Source: Tridacna crocea (lineage: Eukaryota; Mollusca; Bivalvia; Cardiida; Cardiidae). Taken from it: a DNA stretch of 64,000 bases. The translations under genes and the position numbers were made by a program. The stretch's first letter is position 1. Every line of letters starts with the position of its first letter. The stretch covers positions 35,744,619 to 35,808,618 of the forward strand of contig OX031071.1 of NCBI GenBank assembly GCA_943736015.1, read 5' to 3'. The notes beneath the pieces were generated by a model that did no database searches, was not told the origin of the DNA, and saw nothing but the letters and a program-made list of their open reading frames with translations. Below, piece after piece: positions 15,284-61,779 of the stretch.

Positions 15284-16375
15284 AGAGCTCTAGATAAGGA
15301 GGAGTGATAGGATTCTAAATTCATTATGCCCCCCTTTGAAGAAGCGGGGGTATATTGCTTTGCACATTTCAGTCGATCCGTCGGTCCGTCCGTAGACTAC
15401 ATTTTGTTCGGAGCATAACTCAAAAAAGTATTTCAGGTATCATCTTGAAACTACATAGGTGGATAGATCTCATTAAGAAGAAGTGCAGTGCACAAGAATC
15501 ATAACTCTGCCCATCATATTTACGGAGTTATTGCCCTTTGTTGATTTTCATACTTAATTTTTGTCCGGAACATAACTCTAAAAGTATTTCAGGTATCATC
15601 TTGAAACCTCATAGGTGGATAGATCTCATTAAGAAGTGCAGTGCATAAGTACCATAACTCTTCCCATCATATTCTTGGGAGTCATTGCCCTTTGTTGATT
15701 TTCATACTTAATTTTTGTCCGGAGCATAACTCAAAAAGTATTTCAAGTATCACCTTGAAACCTCATAGGTGGATTAATCTTATTAAGGAGAAGTGCATTG
15801 CACAAGAACCATAACTGTGCCCATCATATTTTTGGAGTTATTGCCGTTTGTTGATTTTCATACTTAATTTTTGTCCGGAGCATAACTCGAAAGGTTTTTC
15901 AGGTATCATCTTGAAACTTCATATGTGGATAGATTTTATTCGGGAGAAGTTCATTGCACAAGAACCATAACTCTGCCCATTATTTTTTTGCAGTTATTGC
16001 CCTTTATTGATTTTCGTACTTTATTTTTTTGCGGGGCATAACTCAGAAAGTATGTGAGGTAAAATCATGAAACTTTAAAAGTTGATAGTTCACATAAATG
16101 GGAAGTGCAGTGTCCAAGAATTGCTAATTTATCACCAATAATTTTTTAGTAATTACCCTTTGTTTGTTTTTACACTTTGAACTTAACAGTTTATAATCAC
16201 ATGTTATATTTAGAATTGGATGCCATTAGGGGGGGCATACATGTTTTACAAACATCTCTTGTTTATCTTTTAAAACGAGACGATTCTAATGAGTACCCAT
16301 AACATAGGGTTTTGTGCAGAATAGTTCATATTTTTCATTTTAAAATCCAAATCACTCCCTCTATCTGGAGTTCTG
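15284..16375. mobile_element. MITE family D split by a pearl-like element
   Basis: Left terminus CAGAGCTCTAGATAAGG at 15284; right half (GACGATTCTAATGAGTACCC onward) at 16279, ending CACTCCCTCTATCTGGAG. The middle is the element at 15324-16265. Part of the D left arm is lost. Confidence 0.75.
15324..16265 (+). mobile_element. pearl/Helentron-like element, ATGCCCCCC type
   Basis: 5' TTATGCCCCCC with GTCGATCCGTCGGTCCGTCC, about four tandem units of roughly 150 bp (GTCCGGAGCATAACTC, CATCTTGAAAC). 3' subterminal GGGGGGGCAT answers the 5' CCCCCC, then small hairpin ATGTTTTACAAACAT and CTCTTGTTT. No protein-coding capacity. Confidence 0.75.
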
Positions 16376-16990
16376 GTTACATATCCGTTAGGCAGTCTGA
16401 CCAAGCCTTTACAGTTTTAAGAAAGGTTGATTCAGTGGTTGTTTATTTTACATTGATTTAGGAATAAATTTGAATAACATAAGCCAATTCCCCTTGATTC
16501 TGTTTCCTGAGAACTTCACCAGTACTTGCCTTGGATATGTGGGCCAATCAACAATCCTGAAGTTAACACATACTCCTGGGCATAGAAAATGGGAATTTCT
16601 GGTAATGAGACCACTGCTCTACCTCATAACAGATGCCAGGCAAACTTTAAGTGTCATGTTTTGTCGTCGCTTAGTGATTTTCTTGCAGCATTATCTTGGC
16701 CATTCTTGTAATGCAAAATTAATTTATCATTTATTGATAATGTTGCTTAATATGATCGGATTCGGTTCTGAAAGATTAGAAAGCATCGAGGGACAGTATT
16801 GTATAGTCAGGTGGCAGGGGACTTGGAAACTTGTTGATGGCTGTGGTGAATCATGTTGCACATAGCCAAAGGCTAGGTGGCCATATGATTTGACACAGCC
16901 ATGAAGAAGTTTCCAAGTCCCACTACACCTGACTGTACAACAAATTTATTATACTGCAAAGTTTTACCCTTTCTAAGCATGTTAAGGGAA
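16376..16990. other. spacer with an open frame ending in palindrome H
   Basis: A 131-codon frame (16470-16865) runs into the hairpin at 16799 and has no recognisable domain, so I do not call a gene. It could be part of the larger repeat that carries palindrome H. Confidence 0.4.
16799..16941 (-). repeat. palindromic repeat H
   Basis: Inverted repeat GTCAGGTGGCAGGGGACTTG with a diverged complement ending CACCTGACTGTACAAC. The following 16942-16980 is the reverse complement of 59411-59446, so this copy is the opposite orientation of the one at 59447. Confidence 0.75.
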
Positions 16991-17930
16991 ATTTTCCTAT
17001 TTTATGCCTAGGTCACAAATAAAAGGGGCGTCGGACGATTTCTTCCAACTACACCGATTAAAAATTTTGAGACATCATCCGGGCCCCGTATGGCTTTACG
17101 ACATTTTGCTCAAGCAGTCACAAATCAAAAGGGCATCTGACGGCAGTTTCTTTGGAAATGCCTTTGTGCCTTTTTCAGTTCAGAAAGGCACTGGGTGGCA
17201 ACCGAATGGTCATCAGGCACTTACTGGATGGCGACTGGACGGACATGTTTCGGAATTTGCCGCCGTCAAGCTAGCTACAGAGGCGTGTCATACTGTCCAA
17301 GATGACATGCTTCTGTAGCCACTTTTTGGACAACACAGTTCTCACCCTACAACCTTTCAGCACACTGCTGATCGTAAAACAGCAGCAGCTGCTTTTGCAT
17401 TACTGTGCCTTCGGCTAGCAGCTTGCAATCTCTATTGATGAAGGAAAAGATTCAACAGATTTTATGGCGGTATAAATGTCATTTTCACTTCAGAACTGAT
17501 AAATGATAATGAGGTGAGACATCAATATACACTTTTATAATATACAAGAGTTGTCTCAAATTCCGTGACAGTTTCAATAGCAAAGGAAAATGAAACAATA
17601 CAAATTTTATTTTGCAATATGTTATTTTCGTACTGATCATGTCGCCAAAGTGTATGTTTGCCGTCTGGTCGCTGTACAGAAAGAATTAACAAAATCAATG
17701 CCGCACAGCAATCTGACTGTCACTGGACGGTGCGTGGACGAATATTTATAATCAGGTGGTGCCTGTCCAGGCTCTGTCTGGCGCCTGGACGGAGGCACTC
17801 TGGTCACCGGCCGGATGCAGTGCGGTCGCCGGATGAGTTGGAGTTAAATGTTTTCATAAAAATCTGCCGGATGCTGTCCGATGTCTGAAGGTATCGTTTG
17901 AGTAATACATTAGCCTAAATGAAGGTAGAG
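16991..17930. other. unidentified, less AT-rich region
   Basis: Two stretches (17004-17318 and 17640-17890) are rich in CGG, GGACGG and CCGG words and carry open frames of 104 and 76 codons. I recognise no domain. The repeated GGATG/GGACGG vocabulary suggests a decayed repeat rather than a gene. Confidence 0.35.
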
Positions 17931-17956
17931 TGATACAGGGCCATTTTTGCCCTCTT
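17925..17956 (+). repeat. pearl-like 3' tail remnant
   Basis: GAGTGATACAGGGCCATTTTTGCCC in two parts: subterminal GAGTGATACA, then hairpin GGGCCATTTTTGCCC and TCTTC. The same tail closes larger elements elsewhere. Confidence 0.5.
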
Positions 17957-18014
17957 CTTCTTGCACTATTAAGAGTTTTAAAGCTTCAGGTGTCTTTCAA
18001 ACCTATGGTTACCT

Positions 18015-18321: not shown

Positions 18322-18380
<59 letters not shown>

Positions 18381-18487: not shown

Positions 18488-18740
18488 TGGAGGCAGTAGC
18501 ACCAACCTTTCTTGTACCCATTGCTTCAACAACAGCCAGAGATGTAGATGAAAACTCCCCAAAAGACCTCTCTATACTCACAGTTGAAGGACAAGACGGA
18601 GATGGTGATACGCTGACATTTTCTATTTTTAGTCAGAATCCTATGTCCCCTCCATTTGAATTGGAGAGTAACACAGGACTTTTTAAGACACCAAATGGGC
18701 TGGATGCAGAAACAGCCCAGAGTTTTACCTTTGTATTTAG
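18488..18740 (+). CDS. cadherin-EGF gene, exon: cadherin repeat 1
   Basis: Acceptor TACAAATTTCAG and donor TTTAG|GTAAGT bound an open frame of 84 codons. It begins in phase 1 (residues EAVAPTFLVP) and ends in phase 2. Cadherin marks in order: APTF start, DVDENSP with the Glu of the calcium site, QDGDGDTLTFSI (DxD-type acidic cluster), then ESNTGLFKT and LDAETAQSFTFVF, the usual 'TGxIxT...LDxE...YxLxV' region. It supplies most of one extracellular cadherin repeat; the closing strand is on the next exon. The protein is expected to be secreted or a single-pass membrane protein, but neither signal peptide nor membrane segment is in the window. Confidence 0.85.
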
Positions 18741-18751
18741 GTAAGTTAAGT

Positions 18752-19009: not shown

Positions 19010-19620
19010 TTTATGCTCCCCGAAACATTTCGGGGAAGCATATCGTCGCCATGCTGTGTGTACGTCCGTGTGTCCATTTGTTCGTTCGTTCGTCGGTCTG
19101 TCCAAAGCCATTTCTCCACAACCCCTGGACCAAATTTTATGAAACTTCATATCTGAACTCTTTGGAACAATGCACAACTACCTCTTTCCTAGTTTCTCAG
19201 TTTTTCACTAATATCTCGTACATTAGTGCTCAAAACTTTGTGAAATTTCAAATCTGAACTTGTTTGAACATTGTCCAGATACCTCTTTCCGAGTTTCTTA
19301 ATTACAGGCTGCATCGCAGAAAAAGAAGGCTTCATGTAAAAAATTGTTTTTCTCTAATATATCTCCTACATTAGTGCTCAAGAGTTCATGGAATTTCACA
19401 TCTGAACTCATTGGAATATTGCCCAGATACCTCTTCCACGGTTTCTCAGTTTCAGGCTGCATCACGGAAAAAGGGCACTTCATTATCATGTAAAAAGTTG
19501 TTTTATGTAATATGTCTACATTACTGCTCAAAATTTCATAAAATTCAAATTTGAAATTATTATTCAAAAATGCAACAAACCACGCACCATTTTTATTTAT
19601 TCCAATTATGCAATATTGCC
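19010..19620 (+). mobile_element. pearl-like element, ATGCTCCCC type, truncated
   Basis: 5' hairpin ATGCTCCCCGAAACATTTCG, GTCCGTGTGTCC stretch, then tandem text (CTCCTACATTAGTGCTCAA, GGCTGCATCACGG) in units of about 165 bp. The same body occurs at 31577-32410. The right end meets a MITE A; no 3' tail seen. Confidence 0.65.
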
Positions 19621-24171: not shown

Positions 24172-25822
24172 AACCACAAAGGGGTTTCATACAAAAGTGT
24201 ATGTAGTGGGAATAGGTGTTAAAGGTTACTTGCCCTGTAGACTTTTTCACTTGTAAGTCATCTTTGTGAAATATTTGTCTAACAGAATTGAAAGTTATGT
24301 GATTAATTATACTTAATCAAAACATTGATCTGAAATAAATGTCAAGAGATATTATCATGCCTGATATCTAGCTTTTTATTCAACTGCCCTTTCATTAACA
24401 CCATGCAATGATAGGATTCATTTTCAAAAGGTAACGTAAACAAACAGATGGTGTTCCCTATAATGCTACCAAGTTACATGCACCTTCCAATTTTCTGATC
24501 TAATGACTTGCAGTTCAAGCGCAACATTAACCTCATCTGTTTATGTTACAGGGGATATTTGTTTTTTCCGGTGAAAGATCGAAATTTATTTCATCTCGTG
24601 AACACCATCAGTAATATTTTCAGGCGTGGCGCACTGATCTTTCACCTGAAAAAAACAAATATTCTATTTATTTCAAGCTTTTAACCCTTTCTGGGAGGAG
24701 CTTTATCAAAATCTAGTACAGTTCTTTCCGTTATTCCCTGTGGCGTATCCCTCCCGCTTAGCAACGCACTACAATATTACGTCAAGAGTGAGAATTTTAT
24801 GGTAAATGACGTCATATTTCCCATCTGGTTGTAAGGCATGCACAATTTACCTCGGGGACAAGTACATGAAAATTGGTATTTTCACTTGTGGTACCAGTGT
24901 AAGATCGAAAAATATTTTCACTGCTATTTCTCGATATCCTACTGGAAAGGATGAAATAAAATTTCTTCTTTCATAATCTTCTTTACAATGCATCTGTAGT
25001 GATTCGATCAATTTAATGAAAATTAGGTCATTCAACTTCTGCGAAATAATACAAAACCAGTTACGAATTTCTTTGGCTTTTCCTGTAAGAAAAGAATTAA
25101 ATACTAAAGTATACAGCTGGATTTATGCTAAGTCTGCCCAAGGTTGTTGCTAAATACCAAGTATAGGATGCAGAATCAAAGAATGGGTTTTAGAAATTAT
25201 GGGTGGCGACTAAATCTTGTCTGTAATACGTGATTGATTCGCTGTAGAGATTTGATGCAGATTGGGTGTGGCAAAATCAACATTGTATTGTGTATGCTTG
25301 TAATGAATTGTAACCAGACAAAACCTCAAATAACTGATGTAAACTTCCTTTTGATTACCACTTCTATGATATTTTACAAAATATGTCAGAAATTGCAGTG
25401 AGGTGTTGCTTGTACTTGCCCATAGTCAAGGATCATTTGCCAATGCGAGCAGGCAAGTGGAAGTTTTTCATCCCTGAAAAGGTGCTTTAAGAGTTAAAAT
25501 ATTCGCAAGTCCCTTAACGTCTTCCGTCTTCTCATCCTTAAGATCATGTGAAAAATTTGTTATAACTATAGATATGCACTTCATACTGAAGTGAGTTGTT
25601 GAAGGCAAGTGACCCTGAAATACCTTTGAAATAATTGTTTTCCTTGAGAATTTGTGGTGTAGAATTTTCACTGAAGAGGAACAACAATCAAGGGCTGGCA
25701 CCTGCATGAGGTGCTCTTGAATTTTTTGTTTTTAAAGGGTGGGGCAGGGGTAACATGTTGCATGGGAAACCATTGCCAACATGCCTCTTACATATATTCT
25801 ATACATTTTGAAATATTTACAG
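24172..25822. other. intron sequence with a stem-loop and a pearl-like tail
   Basis: 24554-24580 and 24636-24663 form a 27-bp stem (TTTCCGGTGAAAGATC and complement) with a 55-nt loop. At 25698-25719 a hairpin GCACCTGCATGAGGTGC is followed by TCTTG, the tail style of the pearl-like elements. Otherwise unassigned. Confidence 0.5.
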
Positions 25823-27605: not shown

Positions 27606-28144
27606 GTAATTATTTTGGTTTTTCTCAGATGTTTTTAAAAGTAAGTGAGTTATTGTTATAGCCCAGTTGTTGTTTGCTTCATGGAAACAACTGTTCTTAT
27701 ATCTCTGTTGCTATTGAAGATACTCACATCCAGTTTTGAGGACAGGTGACTCTAAAGTATTTTGACATTTATGTTCATTTTTGACTCCATTGTTTTCAAG
27801 AAAAGGTCAAGGTTTTGTCACAGCCCCTGCATTGTCCATATCACTGGCATGTTTGGCTGCATCATCTTGCTAAAACTTTGACATTAGTACAACAAAGGCA
27901 GGTAAATGTTGAACTACTTTTTAGCTCACCTGAGCACAACATGGTCAAGGAGAGCTTTTGGATCACCCGATGTTCGTCGTCCGTTGTCAACAATCATCAA
28001 CTCCTCCTAAACTGCTGGGCCAATTTGGACCAAACTTTGCTGGAATGTTCCTTGGAGGTCCTCTTTAAAAATTGTTCACATAATTTGATTCTGTCAAAAA
28101 CTCTGGTTGCCATGGCAATCAAATGGAATTTTCTAAGTAGTTTT

Positions 28145-30334
28145 TAGCTCACCTTAGCACAAAGTGCTTAAGGTGAGCTATTGTGATCGCCCTATGTCCG
28201 TCGTCCGTCAACAACTTCTTTAAACATCTTCTCCTCCTAAACCACTGGGCCAATCTTCATGAAACTTGGCAGGAATGTTTCTTGGGTGAAGCTCTACCAA
28301 ATTGTTTAAAGAATTTAATTCCACCCATAACTCTGGTTGCCATGGCAACAAAAAAGAAAAAAAAAAAAACATGAAATCTTTGAAAATCTTCTTCTCTGAA
28401 ACTAGAAGGCGTAGAGCTTTGATATTTGGTATGTAGCATCTCCTAGTGGACCTCTACTGAGTTTGTTTAAATTATATCCCTGGGGTCAAAACTGGCTCCA
28501 CCCCAGGTGTCATAAGTTTGAGCATAAGAACAAAGAAGGAACACTTTAAAAATCTTCTCCTCAGAAACTTGAAGGCTTTGATATTTGGTATGTAGCATCT
28601 CCTAGTGGACTTCTACCAAGTTTGTTTAAATTATATCCCAGGGGTCAAAACTGGCTCCACCCCAGGTGTCACAAGTTTGAACATAGGAACAAAGAAGGAA
28701 AACTTTAAAATTCTTCTCCTCTGAAACTTGAAGGCGTAGAGCTTTGGTATGTAGTATGTAGCATCTCCTAGTGGACCTCTACCAAATTGTTCAAATTATG
28801 CCCCTGAGGTCAAAACTGGCCCCACCCCGGGGGTCACAAGTTTGAGCATAGAAATAAAGAAGGAAAACTTTAAAAATCTTCTCATCTGAAATTTGTAGGC
28901 GTAGAGCTTTGATATTTTGTCTGTTGCATCTCCTGGCGGACCTCCACCAAGTTTGTCCAAATTATGTCCCTGGGGTCAAAACTGGCCCCACCCCGGGGTT
29001 CACAAATTTGAGCATAGGAACAAAGAAGGAAAACTTTTAAATTCTTTTCCTCAGAAACTAGAAAGCGTAGAGCTTTGATATTTGGTCTGTTGCATCTGCT
29101 AGTGGACTTCTACCTTGTTTGTACACATGATGTCCCTGGGGTCAAAATGGCCCCAACCTGGGGGTCACTAGTTTGAGCATAGGAACAAAGAAAACTTTAA
29201 GATTCTTCTCCTCTGAAACTAGATGGTGTAGAGCTTTGATATTTGGTATGTGGCATCTCCTAGTGGACCTCTACTAAGTTTGTTTAACCCTTTCCCAAAC
29301 AACAAAATTTTAAACTGGTCCAAATGAAAAGAACTTGCAGACAACAAAAGTAATGTTAATCAAAAAGCAATATTTGTTTCCAGCAGGAATGAAAACATTG
29401 TGGGAAAAGGAGAAAATGCTGGTTACCAGCATTTTCTCCTTTTCCCACAATGTTTTCAAAAGGCTTCTCTCTCAGGGCTGTAAAAACCAGGGATTGTTTG
29501 GTAAAGGGTTAAATCATGCCCTCGGGGTCAGAACTGGCCCCACCCCCGGGGTATCAAGTTCGAACATAGGAACAAAGAAAGAAAATTTTAAAATTCTTCT
29601 TCTCTAGAACTAGAAGGCATAGAGCTATGATATTTGGCATGTAGCAATTCCTAGTGGACCTCTACCAAGTTTGTTCATATTATGCCCTTGGGGTCAAAAC
29701 TGGCCCTGCCCCGGGGGAGGGGGGGGCACAGATTCGAACATAGCAACAAAGAAGGAAAACTTACGAAATCTTTTCTGAAACTTGAAGGTGCAGAGCTTTG
29801 ATATTTGGTATGCAGAATCTTCTAGTGGACCTCTACCAAGTTTGGTCATATGATGTCCCTGGCGTCAAAACTGGCCATGCCCTGGAGGTCACAGGTTGGA
29901 ACATAGGAACAAAAAAGGAAAATTTCGAATTTCTTTTTCGCATAAACGGGAAGGTGTAAAGCTTTGATATTTGGTATGTAGCATCTTTGAGTGGACCTCT
30001 ACCAAGTTTGTTCCAAGGATGCTGCTTTGGTTAAAACTGACCCAGCCCCAGGGACCACAAGTTCAAACATAGGAAAAAGAATGAAAATTTAAAATTCTTC
30101 TTTGAAACTGGAAGGTGTAGAGCTTTGATATTTGATTGCCCTATGTCTGGCGTCAGTGGCCTGTCAACAATTTCTTTAAACATCTTTTTCTCCTAACCCA
30201 CTGGGCCAATCTTGATGAAACTTGGCAGGGATGTTCCTTGGGTGAAGCTTTACAACTGTTGCTCAAAGAATTGAATTTCACTCATATGCTATAGTCTAAG
30301 GTGAGCGTTCCAGGGCCAATGGCCCCCTTGTTTT
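28145..30334 (+). mobile_element. pearl/Helentron-like element type 1, inserted
   Basis: TAGCTCACCTTAGCACAAAG head as at 3031, about ten 165-bp units with GAGCTTTGATATTTGGTATG, and 3' hairpin GGGCCAATGGCCC before CCTTGTTTT. It lies within the type 2 element and itself contains a MITE A. Confidence 0.8.
29284..29512 (+). mobile_element. MITE family A, innermost of a three-level nest
   Basis: TTAACCCTTTCCCAAAC start, flawless 60-bp palindrome about CTGGTTACCAG, end GGTAAAGGGTTAA. Flanks (CTAAGTTTGT and AATCATGCC) rejoin into a type 1 unit, giving a clean TTAA target. Confidence 0.95.
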
Positions 30335-31576
30335 AAGATCTTCTCCGAAACTGCTGGCCAGATTTTAAAATAATTTCACAGAGATGTTCCTTGGGTGAGT
30401 GACCTTTCCAAAAATTGTTTGGGAAATTTTGATCCGTCAAGAAACATGGCTCTGGTAAATGGGAGCTTCTTGCACTATACAGAAATGAAGAAATTCTTAA
30501 AAATTCTTCTCCTCTGAAACTGCTGGTCAGATTTTGAAATAATTTCACAGAGAGGTTCCTTGGGTGACCCTTTTCAAAAGTTGTTCGTGAAATTTTGATC
30601 CATCAAGAAACACAGGTTTGGTGAATGAGGGCTACTTGCACTTTAGGGAAATGCAGAAATTCTTAAATATTTCTTCTTCTTTCGAATGGCTGGTCAGGTT
30701 TTGAAATAATTTTACAGAGATTTTCCTTAGGTGACCCTTTTAAGAATTTGTGAAATTTTGATTCATCAAGAAACATGGCTCTGGTGAATGGAGGCTACTT
30801 GCACTATAGGGAAATGAAGAAATTCTTAAAAATTATTCTTCTCTGGAATGGTTGGTCAGACTTTGAAATAATTTCACAGACATGTTCCTTGGTTGACCCT
30901 TTTAAATTTTTTTTTGCGAAATTTTGATTCAAGAAACATGGCTCAGGTGAATGGGGGCTTCTCTGAAACCGCTATGATTTTGAAATAATTTCACAGAAAT
31001 GTTCCTGGGATGACCCTGTTTAAAAATTGTTTGTGAAATTTTGGTCCATCAAGAAACATGGCTCTGGTGAATGGGGGCTTCTTGCACGATACGGATATGA
31101 AGACATTCTTGAAAATTCTTATTCTCTGAAACGGCTGGTCAGATTTTAAAACAATTTCACAGAAATGTTCCTTGAATGACTCTTTTAAAAACGTGTTTGT
31201 GAAATTTTGATAGGTCAAGAAACATGGCTCTGGTGAATGGGGGCCACTTGTGCTGTACGGACATAAAAAATTCTTGAAAATTCTTCTTCTCTGAAATGGC
31301 TGGTCAGATTTTATAACAATTTCACAGAAATGTTCCTTGAATGACTCTTTCTTAGAATTGTTTGCGAAGTTTTGATTGGTCAAGAAATGTGGCTCTGATG
31401 AATGGGGGCTACTTGCACTGTATGGAAATTAAGAAACAGGTGACCTATTGAAAATTCCTGGGCAAAATAATCATCTTGTTTCCAGTGTTTCAATACCTTA
31501 AAAAGAAAAAAAATGGCTATGGTCCTATCAAAAATTCAGGTGAGCGATCCAGAGCCATCTTGTCCCTCTTGTTCAA

Positions 31577-32510: not shown

Positions 32511-33838
32511 TAGCTCACCTAAGCACAACATGCTCAAGGGGAGCTTTTAGGATCACCCGGTGTCTGTCGTGTGTCAGTGCGTTGTGCGTTGTCAACAATT
32601 CTTTAAACATCAACTCCTCCTAAACTGCTGGGTGGATTTGGACCAAACTTGGCTGGAATGTTCTTTGGGAGGTCCTCTTAAAAAGTGTTCACAGAAATTT
32701 GATTTCATCAAAAACTCTGGTTGCCATGGCAACCAAATGGAATTTTTTAGGGAATTCTTTAAAAATCTTCTCCTCTGAAACCGCTGGTCAGATTTTGGAA
32801 TAATTTCACAGATATGTTCCTTGGGTGACCCTTTTCAGAAATTGATCGTAAAATTTTGATCCATCAAAAAATGTGGCTCAGGTGAATGGGGGCTTCTTGC
32901 ACCATATAGAAATGAAGGAATTCTGAAAAATTCTTCTTCTCTGAAACCGCTAGTCAGATTTTGAAATAATTTCACAGGATTGTTCCTTGAGTGACCCTTT
33001 TCAAAAAGTGTTCGTAAAATTTTGATCCGTCAAAAAATGTGGCTCTGGTGAATGGGGGCTACTTGCACTATACGGAAATTAAGAAATTCTTAAAAATTCT
33101 TCTTCTCTGAAAGGGCTGGTCAGAATTTGAAATAATTTCACAGAGATGTTCCTTGAATGACCCTTTCCAGAAAGTGTTCGTGAAATTTTGATCTGTCAAG
33201 AAACACAGCTCTGGTGAATAGGGGCTACTTGCACTATAGGGAAATGTGGGAATTCTCAAAAATTCTTCTTCTCTGAAACCGCTATGATTTTGAAATAATT
33301 TCACAGAAATGTTCCTTGGATGACCCTGTTTAAAAATTGTTTGTGAAATTTTGGTCCATCAAGAAACATGGCTCTGGTGAATGGGGGCTTCTTGCACTAT
33401 ATGGCAATGAAGAAATTCTTTAAAATTCTTCTTCTCTGAAACGGCTGATCAGATTTTGAAATGACCTCACAGAAATGTTCCTCAAAAATTGTTGGTAAAA
33501 TGCTGATTTGTCTAGAAACATGGCTCTTGTGAATGGGGCTACTTGCACTATTTGGCCATGAAGAAATTCTTTTTCTCTGAAACGGCTGGGCTGATCAGAT
33601 TTTGAAATAATTTCTCAGAAATGTTTCTTAGCTAATCCTTTTCAAAAAGTGCTCTAGAAATTTTGATCCATTAAGAAACATGGCTCTGATGACTGTAGGC
33701 TATTTACACTATACAGACATGAAGAAATTCTTAAAAATTCCTCTTCTCTGAAAGGGCTGATTACATTTTGAAAGAAATGGCTATGGTTCTCTCAGAAATT
33801 CAGGTGAGCAATCCAGAGCCATCTTGGCCCTCTTGTTT
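32511..33838 (+). mobile_element. pearl/Helentron-like element type 2
   Basis: TAGCTCACCTAAGCACAAC head, TGTCAACAATTCTTTAAAC, about six units with GAAACCGCTGGTCAGATTTT, 3' CAGGTGAGCAATCCAGAGCC, hairpin then TCTTGTTT. Complete in structure, without protein. Confidence 0.8.
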
Positions 33839-43401: not shown

Positions 43402-43810
43402 TAGCTCCACTGGCCTGCTTATGTTATGGCCCGCTGTCCCTTATGTGTCCGTCTGTGTGTGCATGTGTACGTGTGTCTGTCTGTGCCTGTGTTGGCTTTT
43501 ATTTCAAACAACTTCTTCTCTGAAACTAAACATCTAAATTGGATGAAACTTCACAGAAATTATCCTGCCATGATGCTCTTCAGAACTTCTTGAAAGAAGT
43601 TGATTCCTTCAAAAACTCTTGTTGCCATGGCTACAAAAGTGAAAAAAAAATTTAGAAATCTTTGAAAAGTGTCTTGTCTGAAACCTTAAGGCTCAGGGCT
43701 ACCAAATTTGGCATTTAGCTTTATCTGATAGGTTTCTAAAAGATATCTTCATATTATATACCTGGGGTTTAATTGGTCCTGTGCCAGGGATCTCAAGTTT
43801 AGCATGGACT
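43402..43810 (+). mobile_element. pearl-like element, CCACTGGC type, 5' part
   Basis: TAGCTCCACTGGCCTGC head and a (TGTG) rich GTCCGTCTGTGTGTGC stretch, then CATGGCTACAAAAG and GGGGTTTAATTGGTCC. The matching tail GCCAGTGGAG with hairpin is absent here but occurs at 55610, 56378 and 57552. Confidence 0.6.
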
Positions 43811-44214
43811 TGTATATTGTGATTTTAATTAAACTAGTATTTATAATATAAAATACTGTTATGTTATGTTAAAAATAGTAAGAGTTAAAGTCTGTTACTA
43901 TTTACTTTCCTTGGTTATCAAACTTCAGTGATCTCTGATTCATGTTGATATTAAAGTTTTTTGGATTGAACATGTCCTGTTGTCAGGGAGAGCGATTTAT
44001 TTTGATGCTAGTACTTATGCTCACATCAGTGGAATTTTATACTTAATGTAAGGTTTCTGTTGTTTAGTTTTCTTTCCAGAACGTTACCTTTCATGCCAAT
44101 GAATAAACCTTCTTGTATTCACTGACATAGTCTTTGCACTTAATAAGATAATGATTTTTAATTTGTTGGGCAGCTGGGAGATTATGTTCTCCCAGTAAAT
44201 TTACTACCACACAG
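43811..44214. other. unassigned intron sequence
   Basis: Contains a small inverted repeat CTGGGAG..CTCCCAG at 44172-44194. Nothing else recognised. Confidence 0.4.
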
Positions 44215-44386
44215 ACATGTTATGCTGTATTTCTCTGCAGTACCATTTAAGTGATAGATTAATTTCACTCATTAAGAAAGGACAATTATTTTTTACTGGA
44301 CACGTTATGCTGTATTTCTCTGCAGTACCATTTAAGTGATAGATTAATTTCACTCATTAAGAAAGGACAATTATTTTTTACTGGAC
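44215..44386. repeat. two-copy tandem duplication, 85 bp
   Basis: GTTATGCTGTATTTCTCTGC begins at 44219 and 44304 and the units are virtually identical, so the duplication is recent. Confidence 0.95.
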
Positions 44387-44425
44387 CAAGTTTAAAACCA
44401 TCGCAAAAGACAAATTGAACCTAGC

Positions 44426-44656
44426 TTAAATCTTTACCACACGAGAAAATTTTAGACTGGTCTAAATTGAAAGCATTTGTAGACGACAAAATAAAGGTGA
44501 CTGAAAAATAGAAATTTGTTCTGGGAAGGGTAGAAAACACTGTGGGAAAAGGAGAAAATGCTTGTTACCAGCATTTTCTCGTTTTCCCACAATTTTTTTT
44601 ATAGGCTTCTTTCTCAGAGGTGTCAAAAGTAGGGATTGTGTGGTAATGGGTTTTAA
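44426..44656 (+). mobile_element. MITE family A
   Basis: TTAAATCTTTACCACACGAG start, palindrome about CTTGTTACCAG, end GGTAATGGGTTTTAA. A decayed right half of another copy follows to 44792. Confidence 0.85.
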
Positions 44657-44794
44657 ATGACTATTTCTGTCTTCGATAAAGTAGGAAACATTGATAGAAA
44701 AGAAGAAAGTACTGACTAAAAACAAGTTGTCCCCACAAAAGCTTTCTCTTTAAGGGGCGTTAACACTTTCATATTTATGGTAAAGGGTTTAAAA

Positions 44795-44838
44795 AGGCCT
44801 TGGAGCGATAGAGAGACATCATGGCCCTCTTGGTTTTG
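44795..44838 (+). repeat. pearl-like tail remnant
   Basis: GGAGCGATAGAGAGACATCA, then TGGCCCTCTTGGTTTTG. Only the last 40 bp survive. Confidence 0.5.
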
Positions 44839-50340: not shown

Positions 50341-50559
50341 TAAAATATCAATATTTCAGCTGCTTTCCTCCTCCCTTTTTGATCATGTTTTATTACCTTT
50401 CTCATCCAAAAAAAGAATATATTAGTGACAGAGAAGTAAATCCAAACATATCAGAATATGGGGATACAGATTTTTCTTACATATGAAGTCATAAAAACAC
50501 TGCAAAATATGCTAAAATTACAGTTACTAAGAATTACAATTAACTAAGCAACGGCCTTT

Positions 50560-51200
50560 ACTGTAATGGTTTAAGAACCCATATCGGTGAGTCATTTGTG
50601 TAGGCGGCCCAGTAGCTTGGTCGGTAGAGCACTCGCCATGTATGCAAGGGGTTCTGGGTTCGAGACCTGGTCTGGCTGCATAAATTTTCTCACCTGGTTA
50701 CATTTGGTGCCGAACATGGGACAATTGCGATGATGGTTATGCCAAATAACTAGTTCTCCCATCTATAACTACCCTTGGCTTTGTCAAGAACATAGCAAGT
50801 TGTTCTTTGTCCTATGAATTCGTGGACAAATTCCAAATTGGCAGGGTAGTATATAATGGCCTTTAATGTAACTGTTTGAGAACCCATGTCGATGAGTGAT
50901 TTGTGTAGGAGGCCCACTAGCTCGGTCGGTAGAGCACTCGCCATGTATGCAAGGGGTCCTGGGTTCGAGACCCGGTCAGGCTGCATAAATTTTCTCACCT
51001 GGTTACATTTGGTGCCGAACATGGGACAACTGCAATGATGGTTATGCCAAATAATTTGTTCTCCCATCTATAACTACCCTGGGGTTTGTCAAGAACATAG
51101 CAAGTTGTTCTTTGTCCTATGATTTGTGTAAGCGGCCCTGTAGCTCGGTCGTATGCGAGGGGTCCCATGTTCAAGCCCGGGTCTGGCTGCATAAATTTTC
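50560..51200 (+). repeat. tandem array of a tRNA-Thr-like SINE unit
   Basis: Two full units of 305 bp and a third partial one, with tRNA-like heads at 50603-50680, 50908-50985 and 51131-51190. Each has A-box TAGCTCGGTCGG, B-box GGGTTCGAGAC and body TTTGGTGCCGAACATGGGAC. The anticodon stem is CTCGC/GCAAG (GCGAG in unit 3, which lacks the D-arm side) with loop CATGTAT, i.e. TGT. Position 33 is A rather than T and the acceptor stem is poor, so these are not functional tRNA genes. Confidence 0.7.
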
Positions 51201-51725: not shown

Positions 51726-53181
51726 TAGCTCACCTGAGCACAACGTGCTCAAGGGGAGCTTTTAGGATCACCCGGTGTCCGTCGTCCGTCGTCCGTCGTG
51801 CGTCGTTTGTCGTCCGTCGTCCGTCGTGCGTCAACAATTCTTTAAACATCAACTCCTCCTAAACCGCTGGGCGGATTTGGACCAAACTTGGCAGGAATGT
51901 TCCTTGGGAGGTCCTCTTTAAAAACTGTTCACAGAATTTGATTCCATCAAAAACTCTGGTTGCCATGGCAACCAAATGGAATTTTTTAGCAAATTCTTTA
52001 AAAATCTTCTCCTCTGAAACCGCTGGTTGGATTTTAAAATAATTTCACAGATATATTCCTTGGGTGACCCTTTTCAAAAATTGTTCGTGAAATTTTGATT
52101 CGTCAAAAAATGTGGCTCTGGTGAATGGGGGCTTCTTGCACTATACAGAGATGAAGGAATTCTTTAAAAATCTTCTCCTCTGAAACCGCTGGTCGGATTT
52201 TGAAATAATTTCACAGATATGTTCCTTGGGTGACCCTTTTCAAAAATTGTTCGTGAAATTTTGATTGGTCAAAAAATGTGGCTCTGGTGAATGGGGGCTT
52301 CTTGCACTGTACAGCAATGAAGGAATTCTTAAAAAATCTTCTTCTCTGAAACCGCTGGTCAGATTTTAAAATAATTTCACAGAGATGTTCATTGGGTGAC
52401 CCTTTTCAAAAATTGTTCGCGAAATTTTGATTGGTCGAGAAACATGGCTCTGGTGAATGGGGGCTACTTGCACTATACAGAAATGAAGAAATTCTTAAAA
52501 ATTCTTCTTCTCTGAAACCGCTGGCCAGATTTTAAAATAATTTCACACAGATGTTCCTTGGGTGACCCTTTTCAAAAATTGTTTGCGAAATTTTGATCCG
52601 TCAAGAAACATGGCTCTGGTGAATGGGGGCTACTTGCACTAGATGGAAATGAAGAAATTCTTGAAAATTCTTCTTCTCTGAAACCCGTGGTCAGATTTTA
52701 AAATAATCTGACAGAGATGTTCCTTGGGTGACCCTTTCCAAAAGCTGTACATATAATTTTGATCCGTCAAGAAACATGGCTCTTGTGAATGGGGGCTACT
52801 TGCACTATACGGACATGATGAAATTCTTTAAAATTCTCTTTCTCTGAAACCCCTGGTCAGATTTTGAAATAATTTCAGAGAGATGTTCCTTGGGTGACCC
52901 TTTTCAAAACTTGTTCATAAATTTGATCCATCAAGAAACATGGCTCTCGTGGATGGGGGTTACTTGCTTTTATACAGAAATGAAGAATTCTTAAAAATTC
53001 TTCTTTTTGAAACTGATGGTCAGATTTCGAAATGACTTTTACAGGTGACCTTTTGAAAATTGCTTGGCAAAATTATAAATTTGGTTCCAATGTTTCAACG
53101 CTAAAAAAGAAAAAAAAAATAGACTATGGTCATCTCAAAAATTCAGGTGAGCGATCCAGGGCCATCTTGGCCCTCTTGTTT
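51726..53181 (+). mobile_element. pearl/Helentron-like element type 2, complete
   Basis: TAGCTCACCTGAGCACAACG head, expanded (GTCCGTC) tract at 51778-51830, about seven 165-bp units (GAAACCGCTGGTCAGATTTT). 3' CAGGTGAGCGATCCAGGGCC, hairpin GGGCCATCTTGGCCC and TCTTGTTT. Units are very alike, so the copy is young. Confidence 0.85.
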
Positions 53182-53495: not shown

Positions 53496-55048
53496 TAGCT
53501 CACCTGAGCACATCATGCTCAAGGGGAGCTTTAAGGGTCACCCAGTGTCCGTCGTCCGTCGGTTGTTGTGCGTCGTACGTCGTCAACAATTCTTTAAACA
53601 TCAGCTCCTCCTAAACCGCTAGGCCAATTTGGACCAAACTTGGCTGGAATGTTCCTTGGGAGGTCCTCTTTAAGAATTGTTCGCAGAATTTGAATCCATT
53701 AAAAACTCTGGTTACCATGGCAACGAAATGGAATTTTTTAGGGAAATCTTTAAAAATCTTCTTCTCTGAAACCACTGGCAAGATTTTAAAATAATTTCAC
53801 AGACATGTTCCTTGGGTGACCCTTTTCAAAAATTGTTCGTGAAATTTTGATCCGTCAAACATGGCTCCGGTGAATGGGGGCTTCTTGCACTATACAGAAA
53901 TGAAGGAATTCTTAAAAATTCTTCTTTTCTGAAACCGCTGGTCAGATTTTAAAATAATTTCACACAGATGTTCCTTGGGTGACCCTTTTTAAAAAATGTT
54001 TGCGAAATTTTGATCCGTCAAGAAAGATGGCTCTGGTGAATGGGGGCTTCTTGCACTATACAGAAATGAAGGAATTCTTAAAAGTTCTTCTTCTCTGAAA
54101 CCGCTGGCCAGATTTTAAAATAATTTCACAGAGATGTTCCTTGGTTGACCCTTTTCAAAAACTGTTCGCGAAATTTTGATCCGTCAAGAAAGATGGCTCT
54201 GGTGAATCGGGGCTTCTTGCACTATACAGAAATGAAGAAATTCTTAAAAATTCTTCTTCTCTGAAACCGCTGGTCAGATTTTGAAATAATTTCACTGAGA
54301 TGTTCTTTGGTTGACCCTTTTCAAAAGTTGTTCGTGAAATTTTGATACGTCAAGAAACCTGGCTCTAATGAATGGGGGCTACTTGCGCGATAGGGAAATG
54401 AGGAAATTCTTAAAAATTCTTCTCCTCTGAAACCGATGGCCAGATTTTAAAATAATTTCACAGAGATGTTCCTTGGTTGACCCTTTTCAAAAACTGTTCG
54501 CGAAATTTTGATCCGTCAAGAAACATGGCTCTGATGAATGGGGGCTCCTTGCACTATAGGGCAATGAAGAAATTCTTAAAAATTCTTCTTCTCTGAAACT
54601 GCTTGTCAGATTTTGAAATAATTTCACAGAGATATTACTTGGTTGACCCTTTTCAAAAACTGTTCGCGAAATTTTGATCCGTCAAGAAACATTGCTCTGG
54701 TGAATGGGGGCTACTTGCATTTTATGGAAATGAAGAATTTCTTGAAAATTCTTCTTCTCCTAAATGGCTGGTCAGATTTAAAATTTTTTTGATAGGTCAA
54801 GAAACATTGCTTTGGTGAATGGGGGCTACTTGCAACGTACGGAAATTAAAAAACTCCTAAAAATTCTTCTTTTCTGAAACTGCTGCTCAGATTTTGAAAA
54901 GACTTTTACATGTGACTTTTTAAAAATTGCTTGGCAAAAAAATGATTTTGTTTCCAGTGTTTCAATACCTTCAAAAAAAAAAAAAACGGCTATGGTCCTG
55001 TCAAAAATTCAGGTGAGCGATCCAGGGCCATCTTGGCCCTCTTGTTTT
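53496..55048 (+). mobile_element. pearl/Helentron-like element type 2, complete
   Basis: TAGCTCACCTGAGCACATC head, GTCCGTCGTCCGTCGG tract, about eight 165-bp units, 3' CAGGTGAGCGATCCAGGGCC, the same hairpin and TCTTGTTTT. It lies 315 bp after the previous copy in the same orientation. Confidence 0.85.
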
Positions 55049-55794
55049 CGTGGTGTTTTCTAAAGTTATAATGTGCCGAGCTTTACAAGCTTACACCCGT
55101 TTGTACAAAAGGTGTACATGTGCTTGTAATTAGGTAAAATGGAAAAGCATGTACAAAAACACATAAATAACACAAAAGCAAAATGTTAACTATGATAGTT
55201 TATTCTTTTATATATCTGAACGATCACAGAAACAATACAGAAAAGTGCCCTCTTGATATAGAACACATGTTATTTTTACTACAAAACAAGAATTCTTCTA
55301 AATTATTTAAATAGACATGGTTTGATTATTTCCAAAGTGCTTATCCCGAAACATTCATAGGAAACAGGAGTTTCCGGAGAAAGGCAGCTTGACTGTGTTT
55401 GGATTGTGGCTGTATTTTGTTGACCTCTACCAGTATTTATGGAATTATAGTTCATAATCATTGGTCAAAATCTTAAAATACAGATCAGATATGGACTCGC
55501 CCTGGGGTCACAACTTTTATATGGGCTTTTATAGAGAAAATTCTACACCTTCTTGTTGGAAATATTTGCCCTAATTGTCACATTTGATATGTATGATTTT
55601 GTACTTATTAGCCAGTGGAGTGATACAGGGCAATTGTTGCCCTCTTGATAGAGAACACATGTCATTTTCACTACAAAACAAGAATTCTTCTAAGTTATTT
55701 AAATGGACATGATTAGATTATTTCCAAATTGATGATTATATCATCGGTTTATGTAAGAAGGCATGACTTTAAAATTATGTTTAAACTACTACAG

Positions 55795-55902
55795 TGGATT
55801 ATTGCCATGGTGACCCATGTCTACAGGGAACTTGCATAAATGGGAACACTAATTACACATGTAACTGTACCCCAGGATATCTCGGAGTGAACTGTTCCAA
55901 AG
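55795..55902 (+). CDS. cadherin-EGF gene, EGF exon 4
   Basis: Acceptor AACTACTACAG, donor CAAAG|GTATTC; phase 1 to phase 1. Module VDYCHGDPCLQGTC...YTCNCTP...GVNCSK, six cysteines. Nearly identical to exons 5 and 6, with Q where they have H. Confidence 0.9.
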
Positions 55903-56564
55903 GTATTCTTATCATAATTATATCCAAGTTATTATTAACAAAACAGAGAATGATTTGACCATTCTTTTATATATCTGAATGATCACAGAAACAATAGAGA
56001 GAAGTGCCTATGTAAATCATATGCTATTGTATTTCTTACAAAGTATGGTGTCCCTCATCAATATTGAAGTATGGTGATCCCAGTTCTTTAGTCCGGAAAG
56101 ACGGCTTATCTAGAAACATTCGTAGGAAAGAGGAGTGTCCGGATAAACACAGCTTGACTCTGTTTGGATATGGGCTGTATTTTGTTTACCTCTACCAGTA
56201 GTCAAGTAATTATAGTTCATAATCATACGTCAAAATCTTAAAATACAGATCAGATATGGACTCAGCCTGGGGTCACAACTTTTTATATGGGCTTTTATAG
56301 TGGAAATTCTACGCCTTCTTGTTGGAAAAATTTGCCCTAATTGTCACGTTTGATGTGTATGTTTTGTACTTATTAGCCAGTGGAGTAGTAATACAGGGCC
56401 ATTGTGGCCTTCTTGACAGAGAACACATGTTATTTTTGCTACAAAACAAGAGTTCTTGTGAATTGTTTAAATGGACATGGTTAGATTATTTCCAAATTGA
56501 TGATGATTTTAGCAGATTATTTAAAAAGAGGCATGACTTTAAAATTATGTTTAAACTACTACAG

Positions 56565-56672
56565 TGGATTATTGCCATGGTGACCCATGTCTACACGGAA
56601 CTTGCATAAATGGGAACACTAATTACACATGTAACTGTATCCCAGGATATCTCGGAGTGAACTGTTCCAAAG
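56565..56672 (+). CDS. cadherin-EGF gene, EGF exon 5
   Basis: Acceptor AACTACTACAG, donor CAAAG|GTACTC; phase 1 to phase 1. Module VDYCHGDPCLHGTC...YTCNCIP...GVNCSK. It starts 770 bp after exon 4 within the same duplicated unit. Confidence 0.9.
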
Positions 56673-57691
56673 GTACTCTTATCATAATTATATACAAATT
56701 ACTCTTGACAAAATAGAGATAATGATTTGACCATTCTTTTATATATCTGAACGATCACAGAAACAATAGAGAGAAATGCCTATGTAAATCATACGCTATT
56801 GTATTTCTTGCAAAGTATGGTGTACTTCATCAATATTGAAGTATGGTGATCCCAGTTCTTTAGTCCGGAAAGACGGCTTATGTAGAAACATTCGTAGGAA
56901 AGAGGAGTGTCCGGATAAACACAGCTTGACTGTGTTTGGATTGGGGCTGTATTTTGTTTACCTCTACCAGTAGTCAAGTAATTATAGTTCATAATCATAC
57001 GTCAAAATCTTAAAATGCAGATCAGATATGGATTCACCCTGGGGTCACAACCTTTTATATGGGCTTTTATAGTGGAAATTAAACTCCTTCTTGTTGGAAT
57101 AATTTGCCCTAATTGTCACGTTTGATAGAGATAATGATTTGACCATTCTTTTATATATCTGAATGATCACAGAACCAATAGACAGAAGTGCCTATGTAAA
57201 TCATATGCTATTATATTTCTTACAAAGTATGGTGTCCCTCATCAATATTGAAGTATGGTGATCCCAGTTCTTTAGTCCGGAAAGACGGCTTATGTAGAAA
57301 CATTTGTAGGAAAGAGGAGTGTCCGGATAAACACAGCTTGACTGTGTTTGGATTGGGGCTGTATTTTGTAGTCAAGTAATTATAGTTCATAATCATTGGT
57401 CAAAATCTTAAAATACAGATCAGATATGGACTCACCCTGGGGTCACAACTTTTTATATGGGCTTTTATAGAGAAAATTCCACTCCTACTTGTTGGAATAA
57501 TTTGCCCTAATTGTCACGTTTGATGTGTATGTTTTGTACTTATTAGCCAGTGGAGTAGTAATACAGGGCCATTGTGGCCTTCTTGACAGAGAACACATGT
57601 TATTTTTGCTACAAAACAAGAGTTCTTCTGAATTGTTTAAATGGACATGGTTAGATTATTTCCAAATTGATGATGAGTATAGCAGATTATT

Positions 57692-59071: not shown

Positions 59072-59126
59072 TCCTATCCAACCAATACAGTTTGGTTTAT
59101 TATACTTCAAAGAAATTTCTCGTGAT

Positions 59127-59585: not shown

Positions 59586-59737
59586 AATACTGTAGTAATT
59601 GCATGAGAAAACCACCTTTTACTGAAGTCATAAGCTGTGCTTTATAATAGTTCTACTGACAAGGTTTGATTGAATCTGAAATTATTATTATCCTTATCAT
59701 TAATACTGTTATAATTATTGTTTAGTTTGAAGTCCTT

Positions 59738-59966
59738 TTAACCCTTTACCAAACGGCAGATTTTGGACCCGACCAAATTGAAAGCATTTTGCAGATGACA
59801 AATTAACAGTTGTTAAAAAGAGTATTTTTCTATATGATTGGGTAGAAAACATTGTTGGAAAAGGAGAAAATGCTGGCTACCAGCATTTTCTCCTTTTCCA
59901 ATAATGTTTTAAAAAGGCTTCTATTCCTGACTCGTAAAAACCAGGGATTGTGTGGGAAAGGGTTAA
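59738..59966 (+). mobile_element. MITE family A
   Basis: TTAACCCTTTACCAAACGGC start, palindrome about CTGGCTACCAG, right arm CTCGTAAAAACCAGGG, end GGGAAAGGGTTAA. It ends 42 bp before the acceptor of EGF exon 7. Confidence 0.9.
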
Positions 59967-60008
59967 AAAGGGCATGACAGTAAAGTGTTTTTTTTTAACC
60001 TACTACAG

Positions 60009-60116
60009 TGGATTATTGCCATGGTGACCCATGTTTGAATGGAATTTGCATAAATGGAAATGCAAGCTACACTTGTAATTGTACTGCAGGATTTCTTGGT
60101 GTAAACTGTTCCAAAG
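60009..60116 (+). CDS. cadherin-EGF gene, EGF exon 7
   Basis: Acceptor CCTACTACAG, donor CAAAG|GTATAC; phase 1 to phase 1. Module VDYCHGDPCLNGIC...ASYTCNCTAG...GVNCSK, six cysteines. Between the two expansion groups in sequence: H-G-D like exons 4-6, F-L-G like exons 8-9. Confidence 0.9.
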
Positions 60117-60488
60117 GTATACAAGTCTAATTGTTCAAAATAACTAATTAAACTCTAACTAGATAAGAACTTTTTATGGCTTAATAGTAGTGAAAGTGGC
60201 TGAATTGATAGAATGTGTCTTAAAAAGAGTAGAAAACATTGTGGGGAAAAAAATGAAGTGCTTGTTGCAAACATGTGTCATAAATTTACTATACCTTTTC
60301 ATCAGAGTGGTTGAAGTTAACATTCTTTTGTAAAAAGATGACAAGTGTATGCATGTATAACCTTCATATTTGATAGTAAAACTTCAAGAAAGACAAAAAG
60401 TACAAAAAACATAAGAACTTCGTACTCAGGAATAGATTATTCTGTCATAAAAATAACAATTTCAACACAACAACAAACAAAAGTTTTA
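60117..60488. other. unassigned intron, MITE A scrap
   Basis: AAAGAGTAGAAAACATTGTG at 60215-60234 is the only repeat trace. Confidence 0.4.
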
Positions 60489-61779
60489 TTTACTCACCTG
60501 AACATGAAGTACTCAAGGTGAGTTGTTCTGATTGTGCTGTGTTGTCAACTTCTACCTTGTGTATGCTCTAGAGTCCACATCTTCAATTCAATACTTGTGA
60601 AACTTGGTCGGAATGTTTGTCTCATTGATTTCTAGAATTAGTTATATAATGGCTTTTGTCAGGTCAAAAACTAGGTGACCAAGTGAAATCTTATAGGCTC
60701 TAGAGGCCACGTTTTCAGTCCAAAACTTGGGAATATTTGTCTCTATGATATTTTGGAGGAGTTTGATGATAGGTTATGTCTGATGAAAAACTAGGTCACT
60801 AGGTAAAATATTACAAAAAACTTGTTAATACTCTAGAGCCCACAATTTTAGTCAAAACCTCCCAAAAGTTGATCAGAATGGTTGTCTTGATGATGTCTCC
60901 AAAGAGTTTGAAAATGGGCCATGTTGGGTAAAAAACAGATCACTTAGTTAAACCTAAAAAAAACTTACGTAAACTCTAGAAGCCATATTTTCAGTCCAAT
61001 ATTATAAGTAGGTCAGAATAGTTATGTTGATGATACCTCAGACAAGTTAGAAAATGGGTCATGTCAGGACAAAAAGTAAGTCGCTACGTCGAATCTTACA
61101 AAAACCTTTTGTACACTCCAAATGCCACGTTTTTTTATACAGGAACTTTTAAAATTGGAAAAATGTCTGGCTTGGTGGTACCTTGGATGAGTATGAAGAA
61201 AGGTCATGTCCAGTCAAATCTTAGAAAAACCCTTTTTACTCTCTAGAGGCCACATTTTCTGTCCAGAATTCTTAAAATTTAGTCTGAATGTTTTTCGTGA
61301 TGATATCTCAGGAAATTTTGAAAATGGGTCATGGTAGGTAAGAAACTAGGTCACTAGGTCAAAGCCTAGAAAAACTTTGTATGCTCTAGAGGCAACATTT
61401 TCAGTCCAAAACTCTTGCCAGAATGTTTGTCTTGATGGTATCTCAGAAAATTTTAAAAAATACTTCATTTTGGGTCAAAAACTAGGTCACTAGGTCAAAA
61501 CTTTGAAAACCTTGTGTACTTTCTAGAGGCCACATTTTTAGTGCAGTGCTCATGAAACTTGGTCACAATAGTTGTCTTGATGATTTCAAGTGGGAGGTTT
61601 CAGGTCAATAACTAATTCACAGAGTGAAATCGTTGAAAAACTTTTTTTTCATTCAAGTACTCCTGAACATCATGGTAGAATGATTGTCATGTCATGATAT
61701 CTCAAGAGATTGACAATGGGTCATATTTGGTCAAAAGACTCAGATGAGCAACTTCAGGGCTATTATGACCCTCTTGTTT
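60489..61779 (+). mobile_element. pearl/Helentron-like element type 3
   Basis: TTTACTCACCTGAACATGAAG head, about eight units of roughly 145 bp (GGCCACATTTTCAGTC; AACTAGGTCACTAGGTCA). 3' CTCAGATGAGCAACTTCAGG with hairpin GGGCTATTATGACCC and TCTTGTTTC. Confidence 0.75.

Follow-up and report, generated by a model that had tools for sequence, protein, structure and literature searches.

A 64,000-nucleotide stretch of the genome of the bivalve Tridacna crocea (contig OX031071.1, positions 35,744,619 to 35,808,618 of the forward strand; hereafter the window, with positions counted from its first letter) was found to contain nine complete elements with both a head and a tail, together with orphan ends, and these elements are very probably HINEs, that is, non-autonomous Helentrons. 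We named the parts of their ends A (the 5' end repeat, or head), B (the arm just inside A) and C (the 3' end repeat). Families were named after the ends: family i has AGCTCACC-type heads, family ii the head AGCTCCACTGGC, family iii the head ATGCCCCCC, and family iv is the GCACCTGC hairpin type; within family i, the subfamilies are i-a (head AGCTCACCTGAG, in one case AGCTCACCTAAG), i-b (AGCTCACCTTAG) and i-c (AGCTCACCCGAG). Seven of the nine heads are of the AGCTCACC type, one is ATGCCCCCC and one, weakly paired, is AGCTCCACTGGC. A previous sequence-only reading of the window had counted at least ten elements with unrelated interiors; the elements are real, but the complete pairs are nine and seven of them fall into a single head family. 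Their interiors consist of ~145, ~156 or 166-bp tandem repeats wherever Tandem Repeats Finder (TRF) reports an array, and no such array was reported for the family ii element.

All window elements and orphan ends described here lie on the plus strand. The i-a elements are located at 27923-31571, 32512-33835 (with the head AGCTCACCTAAG), 51727-53178 (with 166-bp tandem repeats) and 53497-55044, where both ends are present. The first of them is split by a nested i-b element at 28146-30330, whose end is mutated to CCCTTG. The other i-b element, at 3032-4826, has the head AGCTCACCTTAGCAC with its adjacent inverted arm, ~166-bp repeats, and a tail made of CTAAGGTGAAC, a hairpin and CTCTTG. The i-c element (38521-40226) starts with AGCTCACCCGAG, contains 145-bp repeats and ends with CTCAGGTGAGT, AGGGCCATCATGGCCCT and CTCTTG. 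The family iii element (15325-16261) shows the head TATGCCCCCC, the arm GGGGGTATA, ~156-bp repeats, and a tail with GGGGGGCATA, the hairpin ATGTTTTACAAACAT and CTCTTG. Finally, a probable family ii element lies at 43403-44832, with the head AGCTCCACTGGC and a degenerate tail running from GCCTTGGAGC to CTCTTG.

The heads, tails and hairpins quoted in the sequence-only reading were all present in the window, and we observed that head, adjacent arm, 3' repeat, hairpin and CTCTTG follow each other in register. The subterminal inverted repeats are complementary at 8-11 of 12 letters in each element and, as in Helentrons and HINEs (where they measure ~11-15 bp), the 3' copy lies on the inner side of a 3' hairpin, a palindrome or stem-loop near the end. 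As in Helitron2 elements, the 5' end repeat also pairs nearby: in the folds of the nine heads, the inverted arm just inside the head forms a 5' hairpin with it, weakly so for the family ii head and for the AGCTCTACTGGC head described below. An extended pairing of the CTCTTG end with GAGCGA also appeared in these folds, and it depends on G-T pairs. The 3' hairpins vary by family, as had been noted before, while mostly keeping their pairing (AGGGCCATCTTGGCCCT, AGGACCATCATGGTCCT, AGGGCAATTGTTGCCCT, AGGCCCTTCAGGGCCT, ATGTTTTACAAACAT and GCACCTGCATGAGGTGC); decayed hairpins were seen in two tails, at 31566 and 61771. The CTCTTG tail, previously described as fixed, is shared by families i, iii and iv, but other ends were found elsewhere: TTCTAG after the hairpin of the coding locus L036, CTCTAG at E1 20059 and CTCATG in family v (L007).

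To look at the insertion site, we used the nested element at 28146-30330. Once joined, its flanks can be aligned across the insertion point to i-a copies that carry no insert, with 219 of 257 columns identical to the element at 51727 and 216 of 257 to that at 53497, and therefore provide one paralogous empty site. The site is a T run, with no duplication beyond T letters. For family iii, 13 copies were read (the window copy and 12 loci picked for a perfect tail), and TT directly followed CTCTTG in all of them; since L058/L059 and L064/L065 share their 3' flanks and may be duplicates, at most 11 of these copies may be independent. The head ATGCCCCCC, preceded by TT, was present within ~1.4 kb upstream in 4 of the 13; the copies without a head nearby may be longer, shortened or mutated. 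Insertion into T runs without target duplication, as in Helentrons and HINEs, is thus observed at one empty site and is matched by the family iii 3' flanks.

The word CTCTTGTTT had been proposed to mark element tails. It is present 10 times in the window, where shuffles predict 1.48, and, in counts covering the whole genome (1.05 Gb, 31 contigs), 44,042 times against 14,260 for the reversed word. Enrichment therefore stands, but the word by itself does not make a tail: the two minus-strand copies in the window (57622 and 56452) are without the hairpin module, and among the first eight genome sites read, L001 has the full module, L005 has the hairpin but no end repeat, and six sites have neither.

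The same reading had claimed that the tail repeat always mirrors the element's own head. We scored the best pairing of each 12-letter head with its tail and summed it over the nine window pairs. Own pairs reached 88 (10, 11, 11, 10, 9, 9, 8, 10 and 10 of 12) against a shuffled mean of 75.4 (standard deviation 3.3), and only 140 of 200,000 shuffles of the tails reached this value. Most of this excess is contributed by the iii, i-b and ii elements, and i-a and i-c tails fit i-a and i-c heads equally well. Mirroring is therefore above shuffled pairs but not constant, as the ii pair matches at 8 of 12 letters only, and the type iv tail GCACCTGCATGAGGTGC (25714) has no recognised head.

As i-a and i-b heads are one letter apart, their linkage with tails was followed by position on contig C1, where an exact tail was accepted 200-4,000 bases downstream of a head on the same strand. 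The tail lists contain letter-perfect copies only. Both cover the spans used in full (0-10.35 Mb for i-a heads, 0-33.85 Mb for i-b heads), and over the whole of C1 the i-b tails alone are fully listed. An i-a tail was found downstream of 18 of 100 i-a heads and an i-b tail downstream of none, whereas 4 of 24 i-b heads were followed by an i-b tail and none by an i-a tail. Over the whole contig, 19 of 71 i-b heads had an i-b tail. Seen from the tails in 0-10.35 Mb, an i-a head lay upstream of 18 of 26 i-a tails and an i-b head upstream of none; an i-b head lay upstream of 1 of 5 i-b tails and an i-a head upstream of none (whole C1: an i-b head upstream of 20 of 59 i-b tails). With margins of 18 and 4, the chance of zero crossing is by arithmetic 1 in 7,315. 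On the opposite strand, tails were near 0 of 100 i-a and 0 of 24 i-b heads, and an i-b tail was near 1 of 71 i-b heads over all C1. Upstream of the heads, an i-a tail was near 4 of 100 i-a and 1 of 24 i-b heads, and an i-b tail near 3 of 71 i-b heads over all C1, which probably reflects clustering. That most heads have no exact tail is due, at least partly, to the listing of letter-perfect tails alone. The i-a and i-b tail patterns differ beyond the end repeat, and the test therefore shows the linkage of end variants rather than of a single compensating letter. Heads and tails did not assort independently in the subfamilies tested, and the proposal that end pairs changed together is supported both in the window shuffles and in the two best-counted subfamilies on C1, with 18 and 4 matched pairs and none crossed.

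The adjacent arm follows the head in the same way. Genome counts of head letter and arm letter gave 9,591 for G-C and 1,113 for T-A, against 112 for G-A and 119 for T-C, with 0 for the reversed-word controls; the copies counted are related, and the numbers do not stand for independent changes. Between i-a and i-b, the head thus varies jointly with its adjacent arm and with the tail.

The sequence-only reading had suggested a search for a Rep-helicase of the Helentron kind with the same ends. The Pfam domain Helitron_like_N was found at 32 places in the genome, of which 30 became loci. By identity of the Rep stretch, these form group A (L010, L013, L014, L016-L019, L024), group B (L009, L015, L021, L030, L034), group C (L036 and the L031/L038 locus), group D (L011, L012, L027) and group F (L020, L022, L023, L025, L026, L028, L029, L032), with L033, L035 and L037 outside any group. 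We read eleven 3' sides: E11 (L016), E1 (L017), L010, L019, L014, L009, L015, L036, L011, L028 and E16 (L020). The search succeeded: the i-type repeat, hairpin and CTCTTG were present in four of the five group A loci read (E1, E11, L010 and L019), ~1.95 to 3.6 kb past the open reading frame (ORF), and E1 and E11 also carry the AGCTCACC-type head. In the stretches read from the six loci of other groups (L009, L015, L036, L011, L028 and E16) the i-type module was absent, and hairpin scans of the group B (L009, L015) and L011 ends gave no convincing module.

The E1 and E11 ORFs encode 2,575 and 2,728 amino acids, respectively, and both elements have the upstream head TTTTTAGCTCACCTGAG. Their homology begins at the T run preceding AGCTC, and a 40-base block that spans the tail stops at CTCTTGTT. 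Their 5' part contains repeats of the same 166-bp type as the i-a HINEs, and the first 1,319 bases of the HINE at 51727-53178 are 85% identical to the E1 5' part. L010 and L019 have the same 3' repeat and the hairpin GGACCATCATGGTCC; they share 67% identity over 1.6 kb of coding DNA and 88% over the last 104 bp, with the tail at the end. Comparison of window ends with coding-element ends over stretches of 110-120 bases gave identities of 70-95% for the i-a heads at 51727, 53497 and 32512 (against the heads E1_572, E11_1629 and E11_2306) and of 74-82% for the four i-a tails (against the E1 tail). A random-piece control for these identities was set aside, its top value of 95% probably coming from a piece that overlaps a real tail. 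Subfamily i-a thus shares both ends with the autonomous elements E1 and E11.

In E1, the domain order is Herpes_teg_N, DUF6570, Helitron_like_N (1177-1368), PIF1 (1871-2088) and Exo_endo_phos (2389-2567), and E11 contains Herpes_teg_N, DUF6570, Helitron_like_N and PIF1. We take Herpes_teg_N of E1 to correspond to the OTU protease that Helentrons are reported to carry. The Exo_endo_phos match of E1 (E 2e-4) is under the curated cut-off, as is that of L019 (5.7e-4, partial ORF); those of L010 (5.4e-6), L009 (3.1e-8), L015 (1.4e-6) and L036 (5.9e-8), all partial ORFs, are above it. Three of the four tail-bearing elements (E1, L010, L019) therefore have an endonuclease match, L010 alone over the cut-off. 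No Exo_endo_phos was found in E16 at E<=0.001, nor in L011, L014 and L028 at E<=0.01, for which the partial ORFs may be the reason. An autonomous Helentron is expected to join Rep and a PIF1-type helicase in a single protein that carries an AP-like endonuclease at its C-terminus, and this combination is found here. Separately, we noticed that L043 (E16), L028 and their relatives make a Rep-helicase group without an endonuclease match and with open frames of at most 1,976 amino acids; E16 carries an OTU domain, and E16/L028-type copies are present on several contigs, in three sets 97-100% alike in the Rep stretch.

The L036 locus ends differently, with GCCAGTAGAGC, a hairpin and TTCTAGTTT, the tail being TTCTAG. 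Of 18 exact L036-type tails among the places listed on C1, C2 and the initial 15.8 Mb of C3, only 1 had the exact head AGCTCTACTGGC..AAAGCCAG upstream, whether the limit was set at 4 or at 16 kb. In the E16 stretch, ~7.9 kb past the ORF, a AGCTCTACTGGC head was found with a poorly matched tail ending in CTCTAG.

Altogether, these results make it very likely that the elements are HINEs of the Helitron2 group, copied by a rolling-circle mechanism. A folds with B into the 5' hairpin, and C, which is also complementary to A, precedes the small hairpin and the CTCTTG end. Rep would act at the end sequence by nicking and strand transfer, and the copied strand would be peeled off. C could then pair with A and displace B, thereby marking the end of the copied strand, a plausible mechanism already proposed for Helitron2 by Bao and Jurka. 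If so, a change in A would survive best with changes in both B and C, and the three would change together because one stretch must pair with two others. Helentrons with Rep, PIF1 helicase and endonuclease would provide the proteins for the AGCTCACC family, and other families are probably served by related Helentron groups that differ in end repeats and tails.

Several observations weigh against this interpretation. L014, a group A locus with a short ORF, has no such tail in the 3' stretch read, and E11 is without Exo_endo_phos at E<=0.001. The i-a tails are 56-70% identical to the E11 tail, the i-a head at 27923 is near E1_1511 only (87%; 61-65% to the other coding heads), and the window i-b, i-c, ii and iii ends are only 45-80% identical to coding-element ends. 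For families ii, iii, iv and v, the search turned up no coding partner. The upstream sequence of L010 and L019 covered 1.5 kb before the Rep match and did not reach a head, and the L036 head was absent from 7 kb more of upstream sequence. E1 and E11 each have two candidate heads, which makes the start position ambiguous, and as their 3' non-coding stretches differ, the tails could be separate 5'-truncated HINEs. The i-a pairs are complementary at 9-10 of 12 letters and the i-c pair at 9 of 12. Lastly, copies share descent, and the counts therefore represent the joint inheritance of end pairs rather than many independent compensations.

The sequence-only reading had favored a single machinery, in which one Rep-helicase would move all families by reading the hairpin and CTCTTG only, so that any end-repeat letters would do provided that they pair. 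CTCTTG is indeed common to families i, iii and iv, and the end-repeat letters are not, and the L010/L019 tail is kept while its hairpin letters change in compensation. However, hairpin letters also differ between i and iii, which leaves these two with little in common apart from CTCTTG; the genome has at least three Rep groups with an endonuclease; the L036 group has a different end repeat and TTCTAG; and none of the eleven 3' sides read belongs to a coding copy with iii or iv ends. What stands of the claim is a Rep-helicase with AGCTCACCTGAG family ends, with no partner for the ATGCCCCCC or GCACCTGC type, and we consider one machinery for all families rather unlikely. Alternatively, each Rep group could have its own end code, in which repeat letters, hairpin and last six bases (CTCTTG, TTCTAG, perhaps CTCATG) co-diverged with the protein. 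We put this forward tentatively, as a possibility short of an expectation; if true, several parallel, non-interchangeable rolling-circle systems would operate per genome, each feeding its own satellite-like HINE families.

Two other origins are highly improbable. Canonical Helitrons (Helitron1) insert between A and T and have no 5' hairpin. Their ends are 5'-TC and CTRR-3' (PMC3627910), and Rep-helicases without an endonuclease match, as such an origin would have it, do occur in the genome (E16, and the partial ORFs of L028 and L011). However, the 3' stretches of E16 and L028 have no i-type end repeat, hairpin and CTCTTG, and the heads start with AGCTC or ATGCC, the ends are CTCTTG or CTCTAG, a 5' hairpin is present and insertion is into T runs; as ends, hairpin and target all differ, this origin was rejected. 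Miniature inverted-repeat transposable elements (MITEs) with terminal inverted repeats, or a satellite with end-like flanks arisen by chance, would account for short inverted repeats at both ends and for tandem interiors, yet here the 3' repeat is subterminal, and beyond it come the hairpin and a recurrent tail. At the empty site, nothing but T letters could be duplicated target, and coding Rep-helicase elements have the same ends. A chance origin of the matched ends was rejected on the excess of CTCTTGTTT in window and genome and on own-pair complementarity above shuffles.

Besides the complete elements, the window contains several orphan ends. An i-type head AGCTCACCTGAG at 7217-7228 is preceded by TTTTT and is without an adjacent inverted arm. 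A family v head, TATGCTCCCCGAAACATTTCGGGGAAGCATA, with a 5' hairpin lies at 19012-19042, and no matching tail was found in the window. A family v member with both ends is L007:1037-2630, where the head TATGCTCCCCG with its 5' hairpin is accompanied by the tail CGGGGAGCATA and a hairpin, and the end is CTCATGTT where others have CTCTTGTT. At 25698-25719, the hairpin GCACCTGCATGAGGTGC and CTCTTG form a type iv tail, and no type iv head was recognised in the window by eye or by inverted-partner search; genome-wide, this tail has 502 matches at <=2 mismatches, and family iii tails 993 at <=3 mismatches. An i-c type tail with CTCAGATGAGC, a decayed hairpin and CTCTTG lies at 61739-61776. A family ii tail at 55611-55647 (GCCAGTGGAG, AGGGCAATTGTTGCCCT, CTCTTG) is followed by ATAG, not T, and ii-like tails ending in TTCTTG are present at 56410 and 57580. 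The nearest AGCTCCACTGGC-type head to these three tails (55642, 56410 and 57580) is only at 43403. Within 55000-57650, they are followed by ATAG or ACAG and have neighbouring sequence in common, as if they belonged to a longer segment that was duplicated.

Other features were noticed. A palindromic repeat with the core AGAAAATGCTGGTTACCAGCATTTTCT is present in the window at 13447-13954 and 44500-44620 and in the 3' stretches of L009, L036, L011, L028, L010, L019 and E16 (7 of 9 stretches scanned); it resembles a foldback or MITE family and seems to have no relation to the HINEs. An exon-like stretch at 18490-18741 has a weak Cadherin match (E 3.5e-4, below the curated cut-off), and the window may thus lie in a cadherin-like gene. 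A unit of 305 bp, repeated about twice at 50553-51122, includes a tRNA-like stretch (GCTCGGTCGGTAGAGC...GGGTTCGAGACCC) in which ARAGORN called no tRNA; it is possibly a tRNA-derived short interspersed element. The i-a tail pattern was found in none of the viral contigs.

The ends described here have the published Helentron/Helitron2 anatomy, and the elements are of a known kind rather than a new class. We compared them with known systems on the parts of the cited papers at hand. As in the oyster Cg_HINE elements (Vojvoda Zeljko et al. 2020, PMC7492417), we found a 5' end repeat, an adjacent inverted arm, tandem repeats (mostly 140-180 bp in oyster), a 3' end repeat, a microsatellite-like stretch, a palindrome, and T-rich insertion without target duplication. 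In both cases, a single genome holds several families, and end repeats, arms and stems change from element to element. The ~160-bp central repeats also resemble those of pearl/CvA-type bivalve elements, going by their description in PMC7492417 and PMC11136912. In the text of PMC7492417, no word starts with CTTG or CTAG; its end sequences sit in figures, and the tail may be shared. Helentrons and DINE-1, known from mite, mosquito, fly and oomycete hosts (Thomas et al. 2014, PMC4067079), have a Rep-helicase with a C-terminal endonuclease, a 3' stem-loop and T-run insertion like the elements here. In that paper, Helentron families otherwise <70% identical have near-identical end repeats, and non-autonomous copies outnumber coding ones. 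Among titles and abstract openings since 2020, with subscription journals mostly outside, no obvious link between mollusc HINEs and autonomous Helentrons was seen; by title, nothing on transposons came up for four tail strings, and nothing on bivalves or Helentrons for CTCTTG with Helitron. Helitron2 elements (Bao and Jurka 2013, PMC3627910) also have asymmetric terminal inverted repeats (8-15 bp there), hairpins at both ends and compensatory changes, and end pairing was proposed to end the replicated copy. While compensation was described there in one pair of related elements, we present genome-wide counts of the 5' end repeat varying with its adjacent arm, and head-tail variants of two subfamilies linked by position on one large contig, which fits the end-pairing prediction. 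Autonomous Rep elements of the Helentron type could not be related to the HINEs of oyster (PMC7492417), whereas here E1, E11, L010 and L019 carry the AGCTCACC-family tail, and E1 and E11 also the head, so that coding Helentrons share their ends with bivalve-type tandem-repeat HINEs. These matched and unmatched end pairs make the role of end pairing in rolling-circle transposition directly testable.

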